64,000 nt of DNA, from assembly GCA_947632335.1 (NCBI GenBank), contig CANROX010000007.1:1-64000 (forward strand), read 5' to 3'. A program made the position numbers and the translations under genes. The notes below the pieces were generated by a model. The model made no database searches. It saw only the letters and a list, made by a program, of their open reading frames with translations, and had not been told where the DNA came from. The first letter of the stretch is position 1; every line of letters starts with the position of its first letter. Positions 3,530-42,690 of the stretch are shown here, one piece after another. The DNA comes from an uncultured Clostridia bacterium (GTDB lineage: Bacteria > Bacillota > Clostridia > Oscillospirales > Acutalibacteraceae).

Positions 3530-6500
3530 ATGAATTTTATATTTAATTCCATATCAGAATTAAAATCCTACAAAAAACTAAATTCTTATACAGAAATAAA
3601 CGGTGCTGTTGCTGTAACAGGGCTTAACACCGGGTTTAAATCTAATATTATAGGAACGCTCTGCCATTATAATAATGTTAGGGCTTTTTGTGTTGCCTCC
3701 GACGAAAAAGAGGCTCAAAGTCTTTGTAACGACCTTTGTATGATGGGTCATAATGCCTGTGTGTATCCCCTGCGTGATTTTAATTTTCGTAAGGTCAGCG
3801 GTATTTCCAGAGAGTATGAGCACCAGCGTTTGAGGGTTCTTACAAAGCTGATGACGGGTCAGTGTAATATTGTAGTAGGCACCATTGACGCACTTATGCA
3901 ATATACTATTCCCCAGAAAATTCTTAGAAAATCAACTCTTACAATAGAGAAAGGCCAGCATATTTCTACAGAAAATTGTGTTGAAACCCTTTTAATGCTG
4001 GGATATGAGAGGACAGAAATGGTTGAGGGTACCGGACAGTTTTCCCTTAGGGGCGGTATTCTTGACTTTTTTATGCCGGAAAGTGAATATCCTGTCAGAG
4101 TTGAATTTTGGGGCGACGAGATTGACTCCATAAACTACTTTGATATTGAAACACAGAGAAGATTTGATAAAGCGGACAGCATTTTTCTATCCCCCTCAAA
4201 TGAAATACTGATACAGGATAAGTCTGTCTTGGCAGATAAAATTGAAAAAAAGGCAAATTCTCTTAAGAGTGAAAAAACAGCTAAAGCAAAGGAAATACTT
4301 TATAATGAGGCCGATATGCTTAGAAGCGGAGTTTGCCTGACGGAGATTGATAAATTTATTTCCCTTGTCTATGAAAAGCCGGAAACCGTTCTGGATTATA
4401 TGGATAAGCGGGATTTTATATTTATAAGTGAACACACAAAGGTTGCCGAGAGGATAAAGGCGGGAGAGTTCCAGTATAAAGAGGATATGAAGGAGTATTT
4501 TGCAGAGGGTATTCTCTGCAAAGGCTTTGATAAGTTTTCAAAATCATACAGAGAAATGGTGGAGGAAATAAAGGACAGAAGAACAATTTTTCTCGATAAT
4601 TTTACCTCCGGCCACTTTGACTTGCCTCTTAGTGACATTGTTACATTTAACATAAAGCAAATTCCCCTGTGGAACGGTACACTGTCGGTTTTATGTGAGG
4701 ATTTAAAGGAAATATTTAAGGAAAGAACTACAGTGTGTATTCTTGCCGGCACAGAAAAATCAGCAAAAAATCTTACAGAGGAACTTAACGAAAAGGGCTT
4801 TAAAGCACAGTTTGTCAGAAATCTTGAAAGGGCAAATCAGGGCAATATATATGTTATGGAGGGCGCATTATCCTGCGGATATGAACTTTTGCAGACGGAT
4901 TTTCATTTAATATCCTATGGACAGAGCCTTACAAAAACAAAGAGAAAACTGTCAAAGAAAAAGCAGGGACAGGAGATATATTCTCTTTCTGAACTTAATC
5001 AAGGGGACTATGTTGTTCATTCAACCCATGGTATAGGTGTATTTAGCGGTATTCAAAATCTTGATGTCCAGGGGGTTAAAAAGGACTATATTAAAATTAC
5101 CTATGCAAAGGGAGATGTTCTCTATGTTCCTGTAACCCAGCTCGACATGGTTGCTAAGTATATTGGACCGGGGGAGAATACCAAGGTTAAACTTTCAAGA
5201 CTCGGAGGTACGGACTGGCAGAGGACTAAAACCAGGGTCAGAAAAGCTGTAAAGGATATGGCAAAGGAACTTTCCCAGTTGTATACCCGGCGTATGCAGG
5301 CAAAGGGTTACGCCTTTTCACCGGACGGAGAGTGGCAAAGAGATTTTGAGGCAAAGTTTATGTATGAGGAAACCCCAGACCAGCTGCGATGTGCAGATGA
5401 AATAAAGGGTGATATGGAGCGCCTTGCTCCAATGGACAGACTTCTCTGTGGTGATGTTGGTTTTGGCAAAACAGAAGTCGCTCTAAGGGCTGCGTTTAAG
5501 TGTGTTTGTGACAGCAAGCAGTGTGCAATTCTCTGTCCCACAACAATCCTTGCATGGCAGCATTTTAATACGCTTTTAAATAGGTTTGATGATTATCCTG
5601 TTAGAATTGAATTGTTAAGCAGGTTTAGAACCCAGAAACAGCAAAAGGAAATTGTAGAAAAGCTGAAACACGGGGAGATAGACATTGTGGTTGGAACTCA
5701 TCGGCTTGTGCAAAAGGATGTGGTTTTTCACGACCTTGGACTGGCAATTATTGATGAGGAACAGCGTTTCGGGGTTGCCCACAAGGAAAGATTTAAGGAA
5801 ATCTGTCATAATGTTGATGTACTTACACTTTCGGCAACACCTATTCCAAGAACCCTAAATATGGCTATGAGCGGTGTAAGAGATATGTCGGTCCTTGAAG
5901 AGGCACCCACAAACAGACTGCCGGTACAAACTTATGTTCTTGAACACGAACCTGCTGTTATCCACGAGGCTATCCGCAGGGAACTGCGCAGAGGGGGTCA
6001 GGTATTTTATCTTCACAATAATACTGAAACCATAAACGCAAAGGCTGTTGCACTTTCCCAGGCTATTCCCGAGGCAAAAGTGGCTGTGGGACACGGAAAA
6101 ATGTCTGAAAATGAGCTATCGGAAATATGGGAAAAAATGATTAATCAGGAGATTAATCTCCTTGTCTGCACCACCATTATAGAAACAGGTGTTGACCTTC
6201 CCAACGCCAATACCCTAATTATTGAAAATGCAGAAAATATGGGGCTTGCCCAGCTCCACCAGCTGAGGGGCAGAGTAGGCAGAAGTTCCAGAAGGGCCTA
6301 TGCATACTTTACCTTTAATCCCCATAAGGTGCTTTCTGATATTAGCCAGCGGCGCCTTAATGCAATTAGGGAGTTTACAGAGTTTGGCTCCGGCTTTAAA
6401 ATAGCAATGCGTGACCTTGAACTCAGGGGGGCAGGGAATATTTTAAGCGGTCAGCAGCACGGTCATATGGAGGATGTTGGGTATGATATGTACCTTAAAC

Positions 6501-33598: not shown

Positions 33599-33633
33599 AA
33601 AGGCAGACACAAACTTAGGTGTCTGCCTTTTTT
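33597..33633 (+). terminator. Terminator after the phosphatase gene
   Basis: AAGGCAGACAC and GTGTCTGCCTT form a perfect stem (33600-33610 with 33619-33629) with an eight-base loop and T-run. It is flanked by A- and T-runs, so it can act in both directions. Confidence 0.92.
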
Positions 33634-33682
33634 GTAGATAACACAAATGATGGCGTCCATTTTGCAATGCATAAATGCTATT

Positions 33683-34078
33683 TTACATTTTATTCAAATC
33701 TTTCTTTATTTGTGTAGTACTAATTTCAGGTGTACGGGGCAAATAAACAACATCTACACCCTCGTCTTTCAGAAAGTCAAATTTCCCCTGCCAATCATCA
33801 CCTATTACAAATGTATCAATGTGATACTCATGAACATCTGTTTTTTTCTGTTCCCAGCTTTCCTCCGGGATTACAAGGTCTACATATCTAATTGATTCAA
33901 GGAGTGCCTTTCTGTTCTCATAGTTAAAGTAACATTTCTTCTTTTTTGCTTTCCAGTTAAACTCATCTGTTGAAAGGACGACAATTAGGTAATCCCCAAG
34001 TGCCTTGGCCCGTTTTAGCAAGTTAATATGGCCGTAATGTAACAGGTCAAATGTTCCATATGTAATAACTCTCTTCAT
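33683..34078 (-). CDS. tagD: Glycerol-3-phosphate cytidylyltransferase (TagD-like)
   Basis: TagD makes CDP-glycerol from CTP and glycerol-3-phosphate, the activated donor for glycerol-phosphate transfer in the cell envelope. The 131 residues match the family length. The active-site segment is GTFDLLHYGHINLLKRAK, followed by RYVDLVIPEESWEQKK, VIGDDWQGKFDFL and YLPRTPEISTTQIKK, all near-diagnostic. The ATG at 34078 begins MKRVITYGTFD; a longer frame to 34174 overlaps the licD gene. It is last in the ATP-grasp/LicD operon, 22 bases after licD, so it probably supplies CDP-glycerol to that LicD. Confidence 0.93.
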   Translation of the reverse strand: MKRVITYGTFDLLHYGHINLLKRAKALGDYLIVVLSTDEFNWKAKKKKCYFNYENRKALLESIRYVDLVIPEESWEQKKTDVHEYHIDTFVIGDDWQGKFDFLKDEGVDVVYLPRTPEISTTQIKKDLNKM

Positions 34079-34100
34079 ATTATTTGTTTCCCCAAAAAAT

Positions 34101-34886
34101 TTAAAAATATATATTGACATGGGAATAGTGCCGAATTCGCTTCTCAAAAGGCGGAAAATCCATAAAATTTCCATATCTTTTTTTCAAAACGGATTTAGCG
34201 TCTGCAGGACCATAAAACTTTGCATCTTCAAATACATATTTCTTTAATGGAAAAATATCTGAAACATACATGAATTTGCATTTATAATCAGTTAGAAAAC
34301 CATAAATTTTTGTCGTATCCACACATTTCTCTTTTTCAGATAGACGAATGTTCTCATTTAATTTAAACATTCTATCATTATATTCTTTATCAGAAATAAG
34401 ACCCTTTGATTTTCGTCTTTCAATATAAATTTTGTTTTGCTCGTTAATATAGTCTGATAAATCTTTCTTCTCTATTTGTTGTGCACGGTAAAGGTCAACA
34501 CTAAGACCTTTATGTGCATATACACCATCATGTGGGTACGCCTCGTTTTCTACCTCTGAACACAAATCTTTTACATGTGCCCACGCATGAAAGTATAGAG
34601 GTTCAGATAAGTCATCCTCTAAAAATAAATTACTTGGCAATTCTTTTCTAAGACACTTAATAGCATCTTCATAAACATCATCAAAAATAAATATATCAAA
34701 GTCATCGTCCCATGGAATAAACCCCTGATGTCTTACAGCGCCAAGCAGGGTTCCGAGTGCTAACATATAGGGTATATCATTTTTTTCGAGAATTGAACAA
34801 ATACTTTTAGCCATTTCAAGCAATCTACCTTGTACCTTTTTTAAAGTTTCTTTAGGATAGCCTGGTACTTCAGGGAAATCTATCAT
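34101..34886 (-). CDS. LicD-family phospho-alcohol transferase (first of two)
   Basis: LicD proteins transfer phosphocholine, or in the related Fukutin/FKRP group ribitol- or glycerol-phosphate, from a CDP-alcohol onto a glycan. This 261-residue protein has the defining LALGTLLGAVRHQGFIPWDD followed by DFDIF (residues 43-67) and a C-terminal RYGNFMDFPP, typical of the family. ATG 34886 is chosen because AAGGAG lies nine bases upstream. No choline genes (licA-C) are nearby, but a CDP-glycerol synthase follows. Glycerol-phosphate transfer is therefore the better guess. Confidence 0.9.
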   Translation of the reverse strand: MIDFPEVPGYPKETLKKVQGRLLEMAKSICSILEKNDIPYMLALGTLLGAVRHQGFIPWDDDFDIFIFDDVYEDAIKCLRKELPSNLFLEDDLSEPLYFHAWAHVKDLCSEVENEAYPHDGVYAHKGLSVDLYRAQQIEKKDLSDYINEQNKIYIERRKSKGLISDKEYNDRMFKLNENIRLSEKEKCVDTTKIYGFLTDYKCKFMYVSDIFPLKKYVFEDAKFYGPADAKSVLKKRYGNFMDFPPFEKRIRHYSHVNIYF

Positions 34887-34906
34887 ATTAATATTCTCCT
34901 TACAAT

Positions 34907-36193
34907 TTAAATTTGCCATTCAATTAAACTTTCCACCATATCCAAATCGAATACGGGGATATGTAAACTCTCAGATACAGCCTTGCGTTCTGCAAATGAA
35001 TCATCAATAAATATGGAAGGCTTTTCTCTAATAAAGTCCTTCTTGTCTTTATCTACAGGAATTATAATAATTTCGTCAAATAAATTTTTACAAATTTTGT
35101 ATTTTTTTAAATCATCAAAAAAATTGCCTTTGTGTTTTGAAAGGATATGAATTTTTTTCCCTTTCTCTACCGCCTGATAAAGGAAAGCTATTATTTTTTT
35201 GTTGACGGCGCCATTAATTATTAGGGTATCATCATAGTCCACATACACATGTTCATATTTAATATCAATTTTATATGCATTGTAATATGCCCTATCTAAT
35301 ATCAAAGGGTAGTTATTATCAATTACTGAAACATCATACCCCCAGAAATCAAATAAGGTTAACATGGGAAAATTAATACCACAATTTCTGGATAAACCCA
35401 TTGTACCGGGAATGCGGGGAGAAATCTCCATTAATTTATATTCACCATTAATGTCTTTTTTAAGTTGAAAAAACCATGCGCCTCTAAATCTGAGCTTGTT
35501 ATTTATCTTATTGGCTATTGATAGAACATCTTTGTCTGTATCGAGCAATTTAGAACGAACACTAATTCCGCAACGAATCCTTTCCCGATTACGGAGTTTA
35601 ACAACCCGCAGAGTACCGTGACGGTCAGTAAAACAATCTACAGTATATTCCATACCGGGTAAATATTCACAAATTACTAAGGAAGGGTCATTATTTAAAT
35701 GAATTTTTAACTCTTCCATAGTGTCAATTTTTTCTGCACCGTTTGAACCTTGTCCGACACTTGGTTTGACAAAGACAGGGAACTGCGGAACATCGTTAGC
35801 GCTCTCATAAAATTCAGGTATAAATGATTCTCCGGCAAAATATTTATATGTGTCTTTTTTGGATCTACATAATGTTGTTGTTTTTGCCTCAGATATTATT
35901 ACCTTGGCTTTTATTTTTCCTGCATTCTCACTCAAAACAACGCTTGCACTGTCATGCGCAGGATAAACAGCGTCAATATCATATTTTTCTATAACATTAT
36001 TTAGATACTCTATAAAGTCAGGGCTATCTACATATGGGAAGTTTCTAATTAGATTTTTGTAGACAAATTCGGAATGGTCATTAGCACTGGTTCCTCCAAA
36101 GAGTTCCACAAACTTTGAATATTTTAATGCATTAAATATTTCAAATGCAATCTCTGTTCCAGCCGGAAAAATTAATATTTTTTTTCGACACAT
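34907..36193 (-). CDS. ATP-grasp ligase fused to a HAD-type phosphatase domain
   Basis: The 428-residue protein joins two enzyme domains. Residues 1-290 form a CarB-like ATP-grasp with KPSVGQGSNGAEKI (ATP loop), ICEYLPGMEYTVD and LMEISPRIPGTMGLSR (metal ligands). Residues about 300-428 form a HAD fold with VDYDDTLI (nucleophile motif I), HILSKHK (II), KKDF (III) and IFIDDSFAERK (IV). Both appear catalytically complete. ATP-grasp enzymes ligate a carboxylate to an amine or thiol through an acyl-phosphate. First gene of the operon, followed 20 bases later by licD. The substrate is unknown; it may prepare an unusual alcohol or amino-acid decoration. A run of G residues (GGGGGG) near 36203-36208 is the ribosome site. 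Confidence 0.85.
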   Translation of the reverse strand: MCRKKILIFPAGTEIAFEIFNALKYSKFVELFGGTSANDHSEFVYKNLIRNFPYVDSPDFIEYLNNVIEKYDIDAVYPAHDSASVVLSENAGKIKAKVIISEAKTTTLCRSKKDTYKYFAGESFIPEFYESANDVPQFPVFVKPSVGQGSNGAEKIDTMEELKIHLNNDPSLVICEYLPGMEYTVDCFTDRHGTLRVVKLRNRERIRCGISVRSKLLDTDKDVLSIANKINNKLRFRGAWFFQLKKDINGEYKLMEISPRIPGTMGLSRNCGINFPMLTLFDFWGYDVSVIDNNYPLILDRAYYNAYKIDIKYEHVYVDYDDTLIINGAVNKKIIAFLYQAVEKGKKIHILSKHKGNFFDDLKKYKICKNLFDEIIIIPVDKDKKDFIREKPSIFIDDSFAERKAVSESLHIPVFDLDMVESLIEWQI

Positions 36194-36245
36194 ACGATTT
36201 TCCCCCCATTAATTTAATAATAGAAAATAGATTATATGCCTAACA

Positions 36246-36275
36246 AATATATGAATTGTATTTTACAATTTTCAA
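36246..36275 (-). promoter_or_regulatory. Promoter of the ATP-grasp/LicD/TagD operon with an embedded dyad
   Basis: On the minus strand TTGAAA (36275-36270) and TATATT (36251-36246) are 18 bases apart. Between them AATTGTA and TACAATT (36254-36260, 36264-36270) form a perfect dyad with a three-base spacer, an ideal position for a repressor. It lies outside the invertible segment. Confidence 0.45.
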
Positions 36276-36347
36276 AGGACAAAAACACATTAAAATTCAA
36301 CTTAATATCTACTTATATTAATTTCCTATAATAAGTCATCTTGTTTT

Positions 36348-36375
36348 ATTCGCAGAATGTTTCCATCTGCGAACA
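36348..36375 (+). repeat. Left inverted repeat of the invertible segment (recombination site)
   Basis: A 28-base sequence that is the exact reverse complement of 37730-37757. It contains its own dyad, TTCGCAGA and TCTGCGAA, around an asymmetric nine-base spacer ATGTTTCCA. This is the layout of a tyrosine-recombinase core site. Confidence 0.95.
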
Positions 36376-36380
36376 AAAGT

Positions 36381-36423
36381 AAAAAGGTCACTAATTACCT
36401 TAATTTATTGGTAATCAGTGACC
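36381..36423 (-). terminator. Terminator of the recombinase gene
   Basis: Two 14-base arms (36386-36399 and 36410-36423) are inverted copies with one mismatch, followed on the minus strand by a T-run at 36385-36381. It isolates the left-hand operon from recombinase transcription in the present orientation. Confidence 0.8.
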
Positions 36424-36447
36424 AATATTTTGACCACAAATAAAATT

Positions 36448-37536
36448 TTAAATTACAAATTTTAGTTTATTCATATTTTTTTGTTTTAACTCAAAAGATG
36501 AATGTACATATCTATTCAGCGTTGTTTTAACATCTGTATGGCCAAGAATTTCTGACAATGTCTTTATATCAAAACCTGCCTCTACACATCTTGTTGCAAA
36601 AGTGTGCCTTAATGTATGGAAATGTACATCCTGTAAACCGCAGGCATTTACAATCTGGGCAAATTTTTTCTGCATTAGCCTTGGTTCAATAAACTTGTTG
36701 TTTTCTTGATGTATTACATATCCATTTGCTTTTCTCTTTTTAACAATTAACTTATTTATTACAGGCGGAACTGGGATTATTCTCTTTGATTTATCCGTTT
36801 TGGGTTCGGTTATTAAAATTATGCTTTTTCCGTTTTTATTAATCCGCTGCATAGTCTTTGTGATTTTAATTTTTCCATCTACAATATCGCTCCATTGTAG
36901 GGCGCATAGTTCGCCAATTCTTATTCCGGTACAAAGGGCAAACAAAATGCCAAAGCTATAATTATCCATATGATTTATAAGATAATTAACCAAGGTCTTT
37001 TGTTCAAAAATTGTTAAAACCCTCATTTCCTTTTTTGGTTGTTTTATAAGTTGTACCTTTGGCAAATTAATTTTATATTCATTTTCAGCATATTCAAGTC
37101 CCATTCCTAAAACAACCAAAATGTTATTAACGGTTGTAACAGAGAGTGCCCTGCCGGAGTGTTTACAGGACAACTTATTTTCAATAAATTTAGATATTAT
37201 TTTAGAAGAAAGTAAATTCACCTGTATGTTGCCCAAAAAAGGGGATATGTGTTTTTCTATAATTGTCTTATATTTCACATAAGTTGAATATTTAATACTA
37301 TGCTTATTGGCACATATCCACTCGTACATAATATCATCAACTATTAAACCAACCCTTTTTGTTGAGATTTTTGCATTATTACTGACCATTTCTAATTGTT
37401 TACACTTAACCTCCTGATAAGAATGAGCATAAACAGAGCCATAAATCTTTTTCCCGTCAACAGATATTTCTTTAACATATCTTGCCTCCCAGCGTCCGTC
37501 TTTTCTTTTGTAAATATTTTCTCCTCGTCTTGACAT
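36448..37536 (-). CDS. Tyrosine recombinase/integrase
   Basis: This 362-residue phage-integrase-family recombinase has an AP2-like N-terminal DNA-binding region (RRGENIYKRKDGRWEARYVK), a core-binding SAM-like domain near residues 60-165 and a C-terminal catalytic domain. The catalytic residues are visible: Arg in CTGIRIGELCALQW, His and Arg in HTLRHTFATR, His in LGHTD, and Tyr in LNRYVHSS. The start at 37536 has AAAGGA upstream; an in-frame extension to 37557 lacks support. It is the only gene inside the 28-bp inverted repeats, so it probably acts on them, inverting its own locus. It could instead be a degenerate integrative-element remnant, but no attachment direct repeats or cargo are seen. 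Confidence 0.92.
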   Translation of the reverse strand: MSRRGENIYKRKDGRWEARYVKEISVDGKKIYGSVYAHSYQEVKCKQLEMVSNNAKISTKRVGLIVDDIMYEWICANKHSIKYSTYVKYKTIIEKHISPFLGNIQVNLLSSKIISKFIENKLSCKHSGRALSVTTVNNILVVLGMGLEYAENEYKINLPKVQLIKQPKKEMRVLTIFEQKTLVNYLINHMDNYSFGILFALCTGIRIGELCALQWSDIVDGKIKITKTMQRINKNGKSIILITEPKTDKSKRIIPVPPVINKLIVKKRKANGYVIHQENNKFIEPRLMQKKFAQIVNACGLQDVHFHTLRHTFATRCVEAGFDIKTLSEILGHTDVKTTLNRYVHSSFELKQKNMNKLKFVI

Positions 37537-37699
37537 AAAAACAAATCCTTTCAACAAAGATACTTATATTTTAAACTTGACGAAGTTTTTGACCATTAAA
37601 AATAATATAATAGTATAATATATTGCAGATAATTATTTAATTAGACCTTAATTTATCCATAATATGTTGAAAAATCTTTGGTAATGTGATAATATATCT

Positions 37700-37728
37700 T
37701 TGGTTAATGATAAAAATACTTTTATATT
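37700..37728 (+). promoter_or_regulatory. Outward-facing promoter at the right edge of the invertible segment
   Basis: TTGGTT at 37700-37705 and TATATT at 37723-37728 are 17 bases apart, ending one base before the right inverted repeat. Transcription would begin inside the repeat and leave the segment, rightward now and leftward after inversion. Confidence 0.5.
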
Positions 37729-37729
37729 A

Positions 37730-37757
37730 TGTTCGCAGATGGAAACATTCTGCGAAT
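37730..37757 (-). repeat. Right inverted repeat of the invertible segment (recombination site)
   Basis: Exact reverse complement of 36348-36375 over 28 bases, with the same internal 8-bp arms and nine-base spacer. Confidence 0.95.
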
Positions 37758-37835
37758 TTTTTATATAAAAATAAGGCTATAAAGAAATTCTTACTTGCAA
37801 TACTTTGCTTACTAACTCTTAATTTACCATTTTAA

Positions 37836-37864
37836 TTGTATTTTATAGGCAAATATAGTATAAT
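37836..37864 (+). promoter_or_regulatory. Own promoter of the aminopeptidase gene
   Basis: TTGTAT at 37836-37841 and TATAAT at 37859-37864 are 17 bases apart, about 38 bases before the ATG. The aminopeptidase therefore need not depend on the invertible promoter. Confidence 0.65.
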
Positions 37865-37901
37865 AATAAAGTATATGAAATTAATTTAACAGGTGATATA
37901 T

Positions 37902-39128
37902 ATGAAGAAAACTGATTTAAGAAATTATGCAAAATTAATTGCCAAAAAGGGAGTTAATGTCCAAAAAGGGCAGGAGGTTTATATTACCGCAGAACTTGAC
38001 CAGCCTGAATTTGTAAAAATGCTGGTTGAAGAATGTTATAGGGCAGGCGCAGGAAAAGTTATAGTTGACTGGACATATATGCCCCTTACAAAACTTCATG
38101 TTCGTTGGCAGAAAGAAAAAATACTCTCTAAAGTGGAAGAGTGGGAAAAGGCAAGGCTTCAGCATAAGGTTGATACACTCCCTGCTCTTATTTATCTTGA
38201 AAGTGAAGACCCTGACGGCCTTAAAGGCGTAAATATGGAGAAACTGGTGAAAAGCCAGCAGATAAAAAGGAAAATAACAAAACCCTACCGTGACCAAATG
38301 GATAATAAGTATCAATGGTGTATTGCTGCCGTTCCCGGGGCAGACTGGGCAAAGAAAGTATTTCCAAATGAAAGAAAGTCATCAGCCGTTGAAAAGCTTT
38401 GGCAGGCTATCCTATACACTTCAAGGGCAAATGGGGATCCAATCAAAAATTGGGAAGAACATAACGAGGATTTAGCACAGCGATGTAATTATCTCAATTC
38501 TTTGGGTATAGAAACACTTGAATACAAATCTTCAAACGGTACAGACTTCAGGGTGGGTATGATTGATACTGCAAAATTCCTTGGAGGTAGTGAGAAAACC
38601 CTTGGTTCCAACATTGAATTTAATGCAAATATTCCTTCGGAAGAAATTTTTATTACACCAAAGAAAGGTGTAGCCGAGGGTATTGTATATTCCTCAAAGC
38701 CCCTTTCATACCAGGGTCAGCTTATTGAAAACTTCTCTGTAAGATTTGAAAACGGCAAGGCAGTAGAGGTTAAGGCAGAAAAAAATGAAGAACTGCTAAA
38801 ATCAATTATTAATATGGACGAAAATTCTGCCTATCTTGGAGAGGTTGCCCTTGTACCCTACGATTCCCCCATACGAAATAGTGAAATTCTCTTTTACAAC
38901 ACTCTTTTTGACGAAAATGCCGCTTGCCACCTTGCCTTTGGCCAGGGCTTTACAAACTGCCTCAAAGACTACGAAGAGCTTACCCTTGAACAGTGCAGGG
39001 AGAGGGGTATTAACGACAGTCTTATTCATGTAGATTTTATGATAGGCAACCGAGACCTTAATATTACTGCTGTAACAAAAGAGGGCAAGAGAGTAGAAAT
39101 ATTTAAAAATGGTAACTGGGCATTTTAA
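37902..39128 (+). CDS. M29-family metallo-aminopeptidase
   Basis: This 408-residue cytosolic aminopeptidase is of the AmpS/PepS (thermophilic aminopeptidase, M29) family, which removes N-terminal residues with two metal ions. Supporting segments are the N-terminal LRNYAKLIAKKGVNVQKGQE, FNANIPSEEIFITP with metal ligands, GEVALVPYDSPI, and FYNTLFDENAACHLAFGQGF. ATG 37902 has AGGTGAT immediately upstream; GTG 37893 overlaps it. It follows the invertible segment but has its own promoter. Confidence 0.93.
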   Translation: MKKTDLRNYAKLIAKKGVNVQKGQEVYITAELDQPEFVKMLVEECYRAGAGKVIVDWTYMPLTKLHVRWQKEKILSKVEEWEKARLQHKVDTLPALIYLESEDPDGLKGVNMEKLVKSQQIKRKITKPYRDQMDNKYQWCIAAVPGADWAKKVFPNERKSSAVEKLWQAILYTSRANGDPIKNWEEHNEDLAQRCNYLNSLGIETLEYKSSNGTDFRVGMIDTAKFLGGSEKTLGSNIEFNANIPSEEIFITPKKGVAEGIVYSSKPLSYQGQLIENFSVRFENGKAVEVKAEKNEELLKSIINMDENSAYLGEVALVPYDSPIRNSEILFYNTLFDENAACHLAFGQGFTNCLKDYEELTLEQCRERGINDSLIHVDFMIGNRDLNITAVTKEGKRVEIFKNGNWAF

Positions 39129-39165: not shown

Positions 39166-42100
39166 ATGGACAGAACAGCAATTAAAAATTTTGCCATATA
39201 TGCAAGGCATAAATTAATTGAGAACATAAAATCAAATGCCCGTTTTTTGGGCGTAACAGAAGGCGGTATATCACAGTATTACGGACACCTTAGCAAAGAA
39301 CAGGCAGAGGTAAGAGAAAATTTTATTTCCGCTATAAAGTCTAAAGATTTGACTGATTACGGAGAGGCATATAACAGTCTTGTGGAGGATATAGCCTACA
39401 CCTGGTTTACCAGGATTATATCCTTGAGATATATGGAAGTGAATAAAATTCTTCCACCTAAGTTTTCTCTATTTCCCAACAATGGCAAAGCACCGTATAT
39501 TGTGACAAATCCCTATGGCACTATTCTGGAGTACAGTGAAAGCGAAAAATCTATTATCCACAGTTGCAATAATAGAGATGAGAAGTATACATTTCTCTTT
39601 ATAAAGGTATGCAGTTACATTGAAGAAAATATGACTGTATTTACAGACCAACTGACAGATTACTGCAAAATGCTCCTGTCCGTTTCCTGGGAAAATGACG
39701 GTGTTATAACAAGACTTGTAAATAATGTTGATGTAGATAATTTTACCGGAGGAGTAGAGATACTTGGCTGGTTCCACCAGTACTATAACACAGATATGTT
39801 TAATCAGCTTTATGACGGGGATATGTCTAAAAAGAAGATAAGTCCCCGTTATCTCCCTGTGGCCACCCAGCTTTATACACCTGACTGGGTGGTAAAATAT
39901 ATGGTGGAAAATACCTTAGGCAGACTATGGATTGACCACATGGCGGGGAACAATGAGGAAAGTAAAATTAATTCTTTTATAGAAAAATGGCGTTATTATA
40001 TTGATGACGAAAACCCGTCCTCTAACACACTTAGGGAAATTAGAGAGAAAAGGAAAAATATTTCTTTATCAGAAATAAAATTCATTGACCCCTGTATGGG
40101 CAGCGGTCATATTTTGGTGTATGCCTTTGAAATTTTTATGCAAATTTATTTAAGTATGGGATATACTCAAAGTAAGGCTGTAAGAATGATTTTGGAAAAC
40201 AATATTTACGGCATTGATATTGACGACAGGGCCTATTCACTGGCATATTTTGCCCTTATGATGAAAGCATATCAATATGATAATAATATTGTGAAAACAA
40301 AATGCAGGTCTAACCTTTGTGGGATACAGCAGAGCAACAGTATTAATTCACTTATAGATGTAATGAATTACTTTGCAGGCCCTAACGAAAGGCTTAGGGA
40401 GGAGTTTGAGTACATAGTAACTGTATTCTATGACGCAAAGGAATACGGCAGTATAATAAATATGCGTAAGGTGGATTTGCCTGCAATCAAGGGTCGTATT
40501 AAAGAAATAGAGAATATACTTCCCCAAAATAGGGAGGAAGAAAATTTAAGAAAAGAGGTTTTGCAGAAGTTTTTACCCCTTGTAAGGCAGGCGGAGATTA
40601 TGTCACAGCACTATGATATTGTAGTGACAAACCCTCCTTATCTCAACAATTCAAGAATGAGTACTAAACTTTCCCAGTATGTTGCAAAGGAATATAATAT
40701 TGCGAAAAATGACTTGGCAACAGTTTTTATACACAAGGCACTGGGCGTCCTTACAAAAGAGGAGGGTCTAATTGCCATGATTACCACAGTTTCCTGGATG
40801 TATATAAAAAGTTTTGAAAATATGAGAAAGTATCTTCTCCATTCTTTCCAGCTTAATTCAATCATTGATTTTGGGACAGAACTTTTCGAGGGTAAAATCG
40901 GACATCTTCCTGTGGTAACCTGGGTAAATCGCAAACATAGTCCATTTCAAAAGGTTAAGGCTGTACGGCTTACAGACTATAACTACGGCAGACGAAGTGA
41001 AAAGCAGGAGCAGTTTTTTAACATAGAAAATCATTACTGTGCAGACCAGCTTGATTTTGCAAAAATTCCCGGGGAGCCTGTGGCATATTGGCTTGGGGAA
41101 AATTTTATGAAGGCATTTGATAAAGGTATGACCCTTGGTGAATTAACCCTTGCCCGCAACGGTATGAAAACCGGTGATAATGAAAGATTTTTGCGGCTTT
41201 GGTGGGAGGTTAAAAACAGCTCCGTAAATTATGGGGCGAAAAGTGCAGACGACGCATATAACAGCGGTAAAAAGTATTTTCCATATAATAAGGGCGGGGA
41301 ATATCGAAAATGGTACGGCAATAACGACTACCTTATTGACTGGCAGAACAGAGGAGAAGTTGTTATAGGTATGGCAAAGAAGGATAAAAGACATACCCAG
41401 GATTATAATGACGAACTTAAATTCATGCCCCTTGCAACCTGGTCCCTTATTACAGTTAAACCGGCTTTCAGGTATAAGAGATATGCTATTTCAGATATTG
41501 CAGGAATGTCTTTCTATACCAGTGAGGAAAAACTGTTTTACTACTTAGGTTTTTGCAACACATCTATTGCTACGGAGGTTATAAAACTTCTGGCTCCTAC
41601 TATGAACTGTCAGGTAGGGGATATTTCAAGATTGCCGATTATTCATTCAAAAAGTAATGAACAGACCGTTATAAACCTTGTAAAGGAAAATATAAGGCTT
41701 TCAAAGGAAGATTGGGATAGTTATGAAACCTCATGGGATTTCAAAACTCACCCATTTATAGCATACAGGCAAAACAACCTTGCAGATACATTTGCCAAAT
41801 GGACGCAGGTAGCCCTAAAAAGGCATAATAGACTTAAAGAAAATGAAGAAAAGTTAAATGAAATCTTTATTGACATCTATAATCTTGGTGACAGCTTTAA
41901 GGCAAAGATTGATGACAGGGACATTACAGTGAAAAAAGGTGACTTGCCAAGAGATGTACGCTCTTTTATCTCCTACGCAGTGGGCTGTATTTTCGGAAGA
42001 TACAGCCTTGATAAAGCAGGGGTTGTCTATTCCGGTGACGACTGGGATATAAATAATTATAAGACTTTTCGTCCGGTGTTTGATAACTGTGTTGTTATTA

Positions 42101-42690
42101 CTGATATGGAGGATTATGACAAGGATATAGTCAGCTATTTTGTAAAATTTGTGGAAACAGTTTTCGGAAAGGAACATCTTGAAGAAAACTTGAAATTCAT
42201 CGGCAACGCCCTGAAAACAAAGGGCATTACACCAAGGGAACAGATAAGAAATTATTTCTTTAATGATTTTTATAGGGAACACCTTTCAAACTATACAGTT
42301 GGAGCGTCAGGCAAAAGGCCGATTTATTGGATGTTCCAAAGCGGAAAAAAGGCAGGACTAAAGGTTCTGACATATATGCATAGGTGGAGTTATGAAACTG
42401 TAACCGGTGTAAAGGAAAGCCATCTGCAAATGATGAAAGCCTATTATGAAGAAAAACTTGAAAATTTATACATTGACCCAAATGATAATCTTTCAAAAAC
42501 AGAAATGAGAAAGAAAATGAATTACAGAGATAAACTTCTTAGCAGATATGAAGAAATTATTTCCTATGAGCAAAAACTCAGCAGGCTTGAGGGTATAATC
42601 TTTGATACGGACAGTGGCATCAAGGCAAACCATAAAAGGGTGCAGACCACACCCGAGGGTGAATATATACAAATTCTTGCAAAAATATAG
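39166..42690 (+). CDS. pglX: BREX-type PglX DNA adenine methyltransferase, solitary
   Basis: PglX is the N6-adenine methyltransferase of BREX phage-defence systems. The 1174-residue protein starts with the family hallmark RTAIKNFAIYARHKLIENIK. It has the SAM-binding FIDPCMGSGHILVYAFEIF near residue 306, YGIDIDDRAYSLAYFALMMK, and the catalytic VVTNPPYLNN near residue 487. A long C-terminal target-recognition part follows. Length and motifs are complete. No brxA, brxB, brxC, pglZ or brxL lies in the surrounding genes, which are an aminopeptidase and a Nudix hydrolase. It starts 37 bases after the aminopeptidase stop. It may be a stand-alone methyltransferase or a remnant of a lost BREX locus. 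Confidence 0.92.
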   Translation: MDRTAIKNFAIYARHKLIENIKSNARFLGVTEGGISQYYGHLSKEQAEVRENFISAIKSKDLTDYGEAYNSLVEDIAYTWFTRIISLRYMEVNKILPPKFSLFPNNGKAPYIVTNPYGTILEYSESEKSIIHSCNNRDEKYTFLFIKVCSYIEENMTVFTDQLTDYCKMLLSVSWENDGVITRLVNNVDVDNFTGGVEILGWFHQYYNTDMFNQLYDGDMSKKKISPRYLPVATQLYTPDWVVKYMVENTLGRLWIDHMAGNNEESKINSFIEKWRYYIDDENPSSNTLREIREKRKNISLSEIKFIDPCMGSGHILVYAFEIFMQIYLSMGYTQSKAVRMILENNIYGIDIDDRAYSLAYFALMMKAYQYDNNIVKTKCRSNLCGIQQSNSINSLIDVMNYFAGPNERLREEFEYIVTVFYDAKEYGSIINMRKVDLPAIKGRIKEIENILPQNREEENLRKEVLQKFLPLVRQAEIMSQHYDIVVTNPPYLNNSRMSTKLSQYVAKEYNIAKNDLATVFIHKALGVLTKEEGLIAMITTVSWMYIKSFENMRKYLLHSFQLNSIIDFGTELFEGKIGHLPVVTWVNRKHSPFQKVKAVRLTDYNYGRRSEKQEQFFNIENHYCADQLDFAKIPGEPVAYWLGENFMKAFDKGMTLGELTLARNGMKTGDNERFLRLWWEVKNSSVNYGAKSADDAYNSGKKYFPYNKGGEYRKWYGNNDYLIDWQNRGEVVIGMAKKDKRHTQDYNDELKFMPLATWSLITVKPAFRYKRYAISDIAGMSFYTSEEKLFYYLGFCNTSIATEVIKLLAPTMNCQVGDISRLPIIHSKSNEQTVINLVKENIRLSKEDWDSYETSWDFKTHPFIAYRQNNLADTFAKWTQVALKRHNRLKENEEKLNEIFIDIYNLGDSFKAKIDDRDITVKKGDLPRDVRSFISYAVGCIFGRYSLDKAGVVYSGDDWDINNYKTFRPVFDNCVVITDMEDYDKDIVSYFVKFVETVFGKEHLEENLKFIGNALKTKGITPREQIRNYFFNDFYREHLSNYTVGASGKRPIYWMFQSGKKAGLKVLTYMHRWSYETVTGVKESHLQMMKAYYEEKLENLYIDPNDNLSKTEMRKKMNYRDKLLSRYEEIISYEQKLSRLEGIIFDTDSGIKANHKRVQTTPEGEYIQILAKI

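Follow-up and report, generated by a model that had tools for sequence, protein, structure and literature searches.

A tyrosine recombinase gene within inverted core sites as a probable self-encoded promoter switch beside a LicD operon in an uncultured Clostridia bacterium

The segment at 36348-37757 of the window, the whole 64,000-nucleotide stretch of DNA analysed, is judged from its sequence to be very probably an autonomous invertible-promoter cassette. The sequence enclosed by its two 28-bp sites consists of a tyrosine recombinase gene and a putative promoter and nothing else, and the segment measures about 1.4 kb. The anatomy of the cassette and its recurrence in relatives were observed, as was the joining of one flank to opposite cassette ends at other loci. 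The first-pass annotation had proposed a self-encoded invertible promoter beside a surface-modification operon, and this core idea appears well supported by the comparative anatomy.

Sequence comparison within the window revealed that 36348-36375 and 37730-37757 are exact reverse complements over 28 bp, in accordance with the earlier claim. This is the longest exact inverted pair with a separation of up to 5 kb in the 64-kb window, the runner-up being 18 bp. The left core recombination site (36348-36375, plus strand), one arm of the 28-bp inverted repeat, has 8-bp arms around a 9-bp asymmetric spacer, and the right core recombination site (37730-37757, minus strand) is its exact reverse complement. 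When the pattern TTCGCAGA-N9-TCTGCGAA was searched with up to three mismatches, the two sites were the only matches in the window, while 0.13 are expected from shuffles; the core-like 8-9-8 layout read by the first-pass annotation was confirmed with these two occurrences. The segment 36348-37757 thus shows the flanking inverted repeats expected of an inverton.

The recombinase gene lies at 36448-37557 on the minus strand with a likely ATG start at 37536, and its product is assigned arm-binding, core-binding and catalytic domains. In a 21-sequence alignment the residues R206, K246, H307, R310, H333 and Y343 (numbered from the ATG at 37536) were invariant. The protein carries the R, K, H-x-x-R, H, Y set of tyrosine recombinases, as had been stated for the sole enclosed gene, and is not a serine recombinase of the Hin type. 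Phage_integrase and SAM-like domains were detected, and a Foldseek search with the predicted model gave the Tn1549 and lambda integrases as best matches. The N-terminal domain was modelled as three strands and one helix with a mean pLDDT of 84.7, an arrangement of the Int_Tn916 type that is seen on the predicted model only. No Pfam arm-domain match was obtained for the window protein, and an AP2 match in the relative from G047 had E = 0.0037, below the curated cut-off.

The edges of the cassette contain the remaining parts. Past the end of the recombinase gene, a strong terminator-like hairpin followed by a T run lies at 36386-36423 on the minus strand (z = -4.78 for a 75-nt stretch), which agrees with the recombinase terminator claimed for the left edge; hairpins were predicted at the matching left (3') edge in all three relatives folded. 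Direct repeats of the form GTCA-N8-GTCA occur on the minus strand at 36419-36434, on the 3' side of the gene, and at 37578-37593, on its 5' side and shortly before the recombinase start; both are putative arm-type binding sites. The first-pass annotation had placed the outward promoter at 37700-37728 (plus strand). The sequence TTGGTT-N17-TATATT is indeed there, but its promoter role was rejected: it is weak (8/12 by hand count), was not listed by the promoter scan, and comparison favours an element 33 bp further inside. The most likely cassette promoter is TTGAAA-N17-TAATAT at 37667-37695 (plus strand), which reads rightward here and would read leftward into the LicD operon if inverted. It scores 9/12 to consensus, a value reached by one third of shuffles, and is favoured because it is supported by the aligned TTGACA-N17-TAACAT of a relic on contig C14, by TTGAAA-N17-TAAAAT in the nearest relative, G047, and by the family-wide pattern at the 5' edge.

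The relic lies in the window's own genome, from G000:C14:25427 to about 25660 (L041, about 5428-5661). It retains a decayed left site, 3'-edge parts, the outward promoter and a decayed right site but no recombinase gene. Its promoter is directed at two glycosyltransferase genes, GtrII and GT2, and the relic may represent a switch locked ON.

The proposed working of the cassette is as follows. The integrase-type tyrosine recombinase would bind both inverted core sites, and probably also the GTCA-N8-GTCA arm repeats just inside them, and would flip the segment that holds its own gene. Core sites in inverted orientation give inversion, not excision. The 3'-edge terminator would insulate the recombinase gene while the 5'-edge promoter would read out of the cassette. 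In the assembled orientation this promoter would point toward the aminopeptidase side, leaving the LicD operon presumably OFF as regards the switch; inversion would turn it toward the ATP-grasp/LicD/TagD operon, which it would then transcribe (ON). We infer that the enzyme acts on the window sites in a reaction controlled by arm binding, and that the promoter is active and affects the operon.

The recurrence of the enclosing repeats was analysed in relatives. Matches to the recombinase at E <= 1e-50 were found in 35 of 161 genus genomes (51 in total); with four further loci the genus sample comprised 55, of which 50 had both flanks. An enclosing inverted repeat of score at least 15 was present in 37/50, against 5/140 for a control in which flanks were permuted between loci, and at a score of at least 13 the values were 40/50 and 10/140. 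Among the 50, G015 was scored as a miss because its repeats, which are present, lie beyond the flank limits used. The order-wide search found relatives in 55/394 genomes (80 rows), and this second sample of 28 new loci, three of them one nearly identical locus in three species, showed the repeat in 25 of the 27 with both flanks (permuted 4/150). For the combined set of 95 loci the repeat of score at least 15 was seen in 72/89 with both flanks; all family counts are uncorrected for kinship. The other 17/89 had no repeat of score 15, and these misses include G089, G180, G005, G128, G193, G195b, G003, G196c, G417 and G467.

The pattern was also followed in viral contigs and plasmids. From IMG/VR, 57 of 88 loci (L201-L288) were used, end-truncated matches and two duplicates being mostly left out, and 55 had enough flank. 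Enclosure was found in 7/12 relatives with at least 38% identity, two of the misses being one identical locus, and in 1/43 distant integrases below 38%, identity being measured against the window protein except at seven loci, where the G500 relative served as reference. Plasmid loci showed the repeat in 6/9, three of the six being nearly identical E. raffinosus plasmids. The protein family itself is large: of 7999 proteins scored, 6638 reached E <= 1e-60. In repeat-bearing loci the arms lie mostly 50-130 bp past the gene 3' end and 150-330 bp past the 5' end, and the edges are shorter for armless enzymes.

Several relatives showed features of their own. In G500, G488 and G270 (L172, L173, L174), three species of two families, cassette and flanks are 94-100% identical over the aligned pieces, from which it follows that the cassette probably moved recently together with its surroundings. 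The nearest relative cassette (L043, G047) has an Eco57I-type methylase/ResIII pair on one side and an AbiH-like gene on the other, possibly a phase-variable defence locus. On E. raffinosus plasmid pCX012922 (L194) the related recombinase is enclosed by an 18-bp repeat and adjoins an accessory Sec (secA2) operon; on E. gilvus pCR1A (L198) it adjoins a WxL surface-protein operon and the enclosing repeat is weak. A second tyrosine-recombinase-like gene adjoins the cassette in L033 (4645-5571) and in the flank of G439a/G439c (L179, L181). By eye, its usual catalytic histidines are replaced by other residues; possibly it encodes an inactive partner and is controlled by the switch.

The edge elements were counted across the family. 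An outward promoter of at least 10/12 within the last 90 bp before the 5'-side site was present in 48/72 repeat-bearing loci, whereas the controls gave 1/72 inward, 0/64 at the 3' edge and 5% of shuffles. With at least 11/12 the count was 32 loci, against 0 inward, 0 at the 3' edge and 0.4% of shuffles. GTCA-N8-GTCA, with its fixed 12-bp step, was found among 78 arm-domain loci at the gene 3' end in 37, at the 5' end in 43 and at either in 53, while shuffled edges gave about 0.1%. None of the 8 armless loci, defined by a protein match starting past residue 60, carried it (53/78 versus 0/8; Fisher p = 0.00026, kinship uncorrected); this count omits 7 fragment and 2 short-flank loci of the 95 and retains repeat-less loci. 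Sorting of armless enzymes by a sequence motif (48/69 versus 8/20, p = 0.02) was discarded, as it misfiled full-length proteins with a differing motif. The N-terminal motif of the recombinase of G009 (L015) has diverged, and the GTCA pair at the 12-bp step was not found at either edge of that locus. Of 37 loci in which both neighbours were called, 35 have one or both of these nearest genes directed away from the cassette.

Orientation was compared between loci and species, and among the genomes covered, one per species, the opposite orientation was not seen at the window's own locus. The first-pass annotation had pointed to relatives as the place to look for the opposite orientation; opposite joins were indeed found in related cassettes, but at the window's own place G098, G128 and G047 have no cassette. 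The paralogues G439c and G439a of one genome, both repeat-bearing, share 987 bp at 93.4% on opposite ends, and the homology begins at the core site. A 5.9-kb flank, 89.5% identical between G195f and G197f, is joined to opposite ends, both contigs stopping inside the recombinase gene. Two gene groups were split between the sides, partly seen at nucleotide level and with families assigned from one member each: G043 and G044 carry a PP2C/kinase group at the 3' side, G023, G119 and G128 at the 5' side (2:3); a group with AraC-type genes occupies the 5' side of G045, G051, G122 and G145 and the 3' side of G052, G148, G159 and G168 (4:4). Five of these 13 loci (G128, G122, G051, G052, G159) have no score-15 repeat. 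An HTH gene is likewise common to opposite ends of L201 and L203, of which L201 has no clear repeat.

Among the loci compared, no swapped pair with both outer flanks conserved was found. The close pairs or sets G001/G127, G194/G198, G195d/G197d and G270/G488/G500 are each in one orientation, no flip was seen among E. raffinosus plasmids (4/4 strains alike), and none between IMG/VR L201 and L202, which are identical over 9.4 kb. The contigs of G058 (L050) and G051 (L060) end about 13 and 2 bases from the cassette repeat. Such ends fit a sampled population with both orientations and may possibly have other causes.

The neighbouring genes indicate the likely local target. To the left, on the minus strand, lie an ATP-grasp enzyme (34907-36193), the first gene of the candidate operon, a LicD family protein (34101-34919) and a TagD-like glycerol-3-phosphate cytidylyltransferase (33683-34174, start codon uncertain). 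To the right, on the plus strand, is an M29 family aminopeptidase (37893-39128), whose relatives in G098, G128 and G047 are 88-91% identical, preceded by its native promoter TTGTAT-N17-TATAAT (37836-37864) outside the cassette. In these three genomes the promoter or a close variant is kept and the cassette is lacking at this place. The aminopeptidase of G098 directly follows a HAD gene, with operon and cassette missing at this place; in G128 and G047, where both are also missing, it follows a relative of the 30250-31041 gene, so more differs on the left side. An approximate island of operon plus cassette can thereby be drawn at 33600-37830. Since the aminopeptidase is resident with its own conserved promoter and the operon and cassette are missing together, the ATP-grasp/LicD/TagD operon is the likely target of the switch, and the aminopeptidase was rejected as main target on the same two grounds. 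Directly past the aminopeptidase, a BREX-1 type PglX methyltransferase gene is found at 39166-42690 (PADLOC and NCBIfam matches).

The ATP-grasp gene of the operon was detected at E <= 1e-30 in 3/161 genus genomes including the window's own. The operon region of G194 shows 77% identity, and its contig, which reaches roughly 690 bp further upstream, contains no cassette there; the ATP-grasp gene of G125 belongs to a larger polysaccharide-type cluster and is directly preceded by another gene. The earlier statement that the only promoter belonging to the LicD operon is a weaker one is not established: TTGAAA-N18-TATATT upstream of it scores 10/12 to consensus, and a TATAAT -10-like element, identified by eye, is common to the window and G194, where the available upstream sequence has no cassette.

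Three other readings of the segment were weighed. It could be a minimal mobile element, its repeats being terminal inverted repeats and its recombinase an integrase that performs no switching. Enzymes of the arm-binding type are tied to mobile elements in the available part of the literature (PMC8138268), the relatives lie beside unrelated genes with up to six per genome, the near-identical cassette with its flanks occurs in two families, and the swapped flanks could have arisen by separate insertions in opposite orientation. This reading is nevertheless quite improbable. The repeats, here and in many relatives, have the symmetry of core sites around a spacer and are in inverted orientation, the outward promoter is at one edge only, and the shared flank of G439a and G439c is on opposite ends with its breakpoint at the core site; a pure transposon was rejected. 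Moreover, G270, G488 and G500 share kilobases of flank along with the cassette, not the cassette alone, and at the window's place operon and cassette are missing together.

That the cassette toggles between two targets, serving the aminopeptidase/PglX genes as assembled and the LicD operon once inverted, is suggested by both window neighbours pointing away from it and by G015, where two very large genes face outward, one on each side. It is unlikely, given that the aminopeptidase is a resident gene with a promoter conserved where the cassette is absent, while operon and cassette are missing as one. The outward-facing neighbours are no evidence for two targets because both nearest genes are outward in only 10/40 family loci, which is about the chance level. 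A decayed relic that has lost inversion would be in line with the remnant on C14 and with the stops in the recombinase genes of G002, G128, G169, G195e and G132c. It is highly improbable for the window, where the gene has an open frame and its full catalytic set and the two sites match exactly. An autonomous invertible promoter acting on the LicD operon is therefore the preferred reading.

A broader proposal is put forward tentatively, at somewhat less than even probability. Arm-binding integrases of the Tn916/lambda type may have been domesticated across the order as portable promoter switches, in units of about 1.2-1.5 kb comprising recombinase, core sites, paired arm sites, terminator and one outward promoter, inherited or transferred with the surface, signalling, glycan or defence genes that they control. 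The same-pointing arm repeats at the ends might make switching regulated (by orientation and autoregulation) and not random. A large family of arm-binding recombinases appears to serve as dedicated switches that each bring along their own recombinase, and the question is raised what arm sites do in an inversion system. As the recombinase lies inside, the segment reaches about 1.4 kb and might escape surveys aimed at short intergenic invertons. The analysis also suggests a simple rule, a repeat-enclosed recombinase with an outward promoter at its 5' edge, by which phase-variable genes for surface structures, signalling, glycans and defence might be predicted in poorly cultured bacteria.

The cassette was compared with known systems. 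The Hin segment of the flagellar switch of Salmonella holds an outward promoter, and Hin belongs to the serine recombinases and works with another accessory system. A recombinase gene within its own invertible segment is already known from Hin/fljBA (PMC5903667, in part), and the present cassette shares this likeness and differs in its tyrosine integrase-type enzyme and putative arm repeats. FimB/FimE, RecV of C. difficile and Tsr of Bacteroides flip a promoter by surface genes through short inverted repeats (excerpts of PMC5903667 and PMC11892184). For tyrosine-recombinase invertons the recombinase is described as mostly beside the segment or elsewhere (same excerpt of PMC5903667), and in two group 139 invertons the arms are about 206 and 228 bp apart and the invertase is described as nearby (PMC11892184, in excerpt). 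The promoter-flipping repeats are alike, whereas the window recombinase lies inside the segment. The layout of arm-binding, core-binding and catalytic domains is that of the Int_Tn916 subgroup and lambda Int (PMC8138268, portion available), the best sequence and fold matches among solved structures; the solved Tn1549 structures have no arm domain. Tn916, Tn1549 and lambda Int integrate and excise elements, whereas the window sites are inverted around the gene and enclose only recombinase and putative promoter, the cassette being the sole element delimited in the window.

Inversion by tyrosine recombinases is found in two further systems. The PsrA/CreX gene of Streptococcus pneumoniae lies among the inverted genes, and its locus switches a specificity gene, not a promoter. 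At this hsdS locus the tyrosine recombinase produces inversions at several repeat pairs (PMC7096588, in part). It is alike in being an inverting tyrosine recombinase, but the window cassette would switch a promoter. The Rin shufflon of Bifidobacterium phages has an armless tyrosine invertase with predicted shuffling of receptor-binding gene parts (PMC6109161, in part); it is also a tyrosine invertase, but armless, and it would shuffle gene parts, not a promoter. A literature search covering titles, the beginnings of abstracts and few subscription papers returned no tyrosine recombinase with an outward promoter in its own invertible segment. The apparent novelty lies in the joint occurrence of an integrase-type, arm-binding tyrosine recombinase with paired arm-like repeats and a single outward promoter, together with an order-wide spread.
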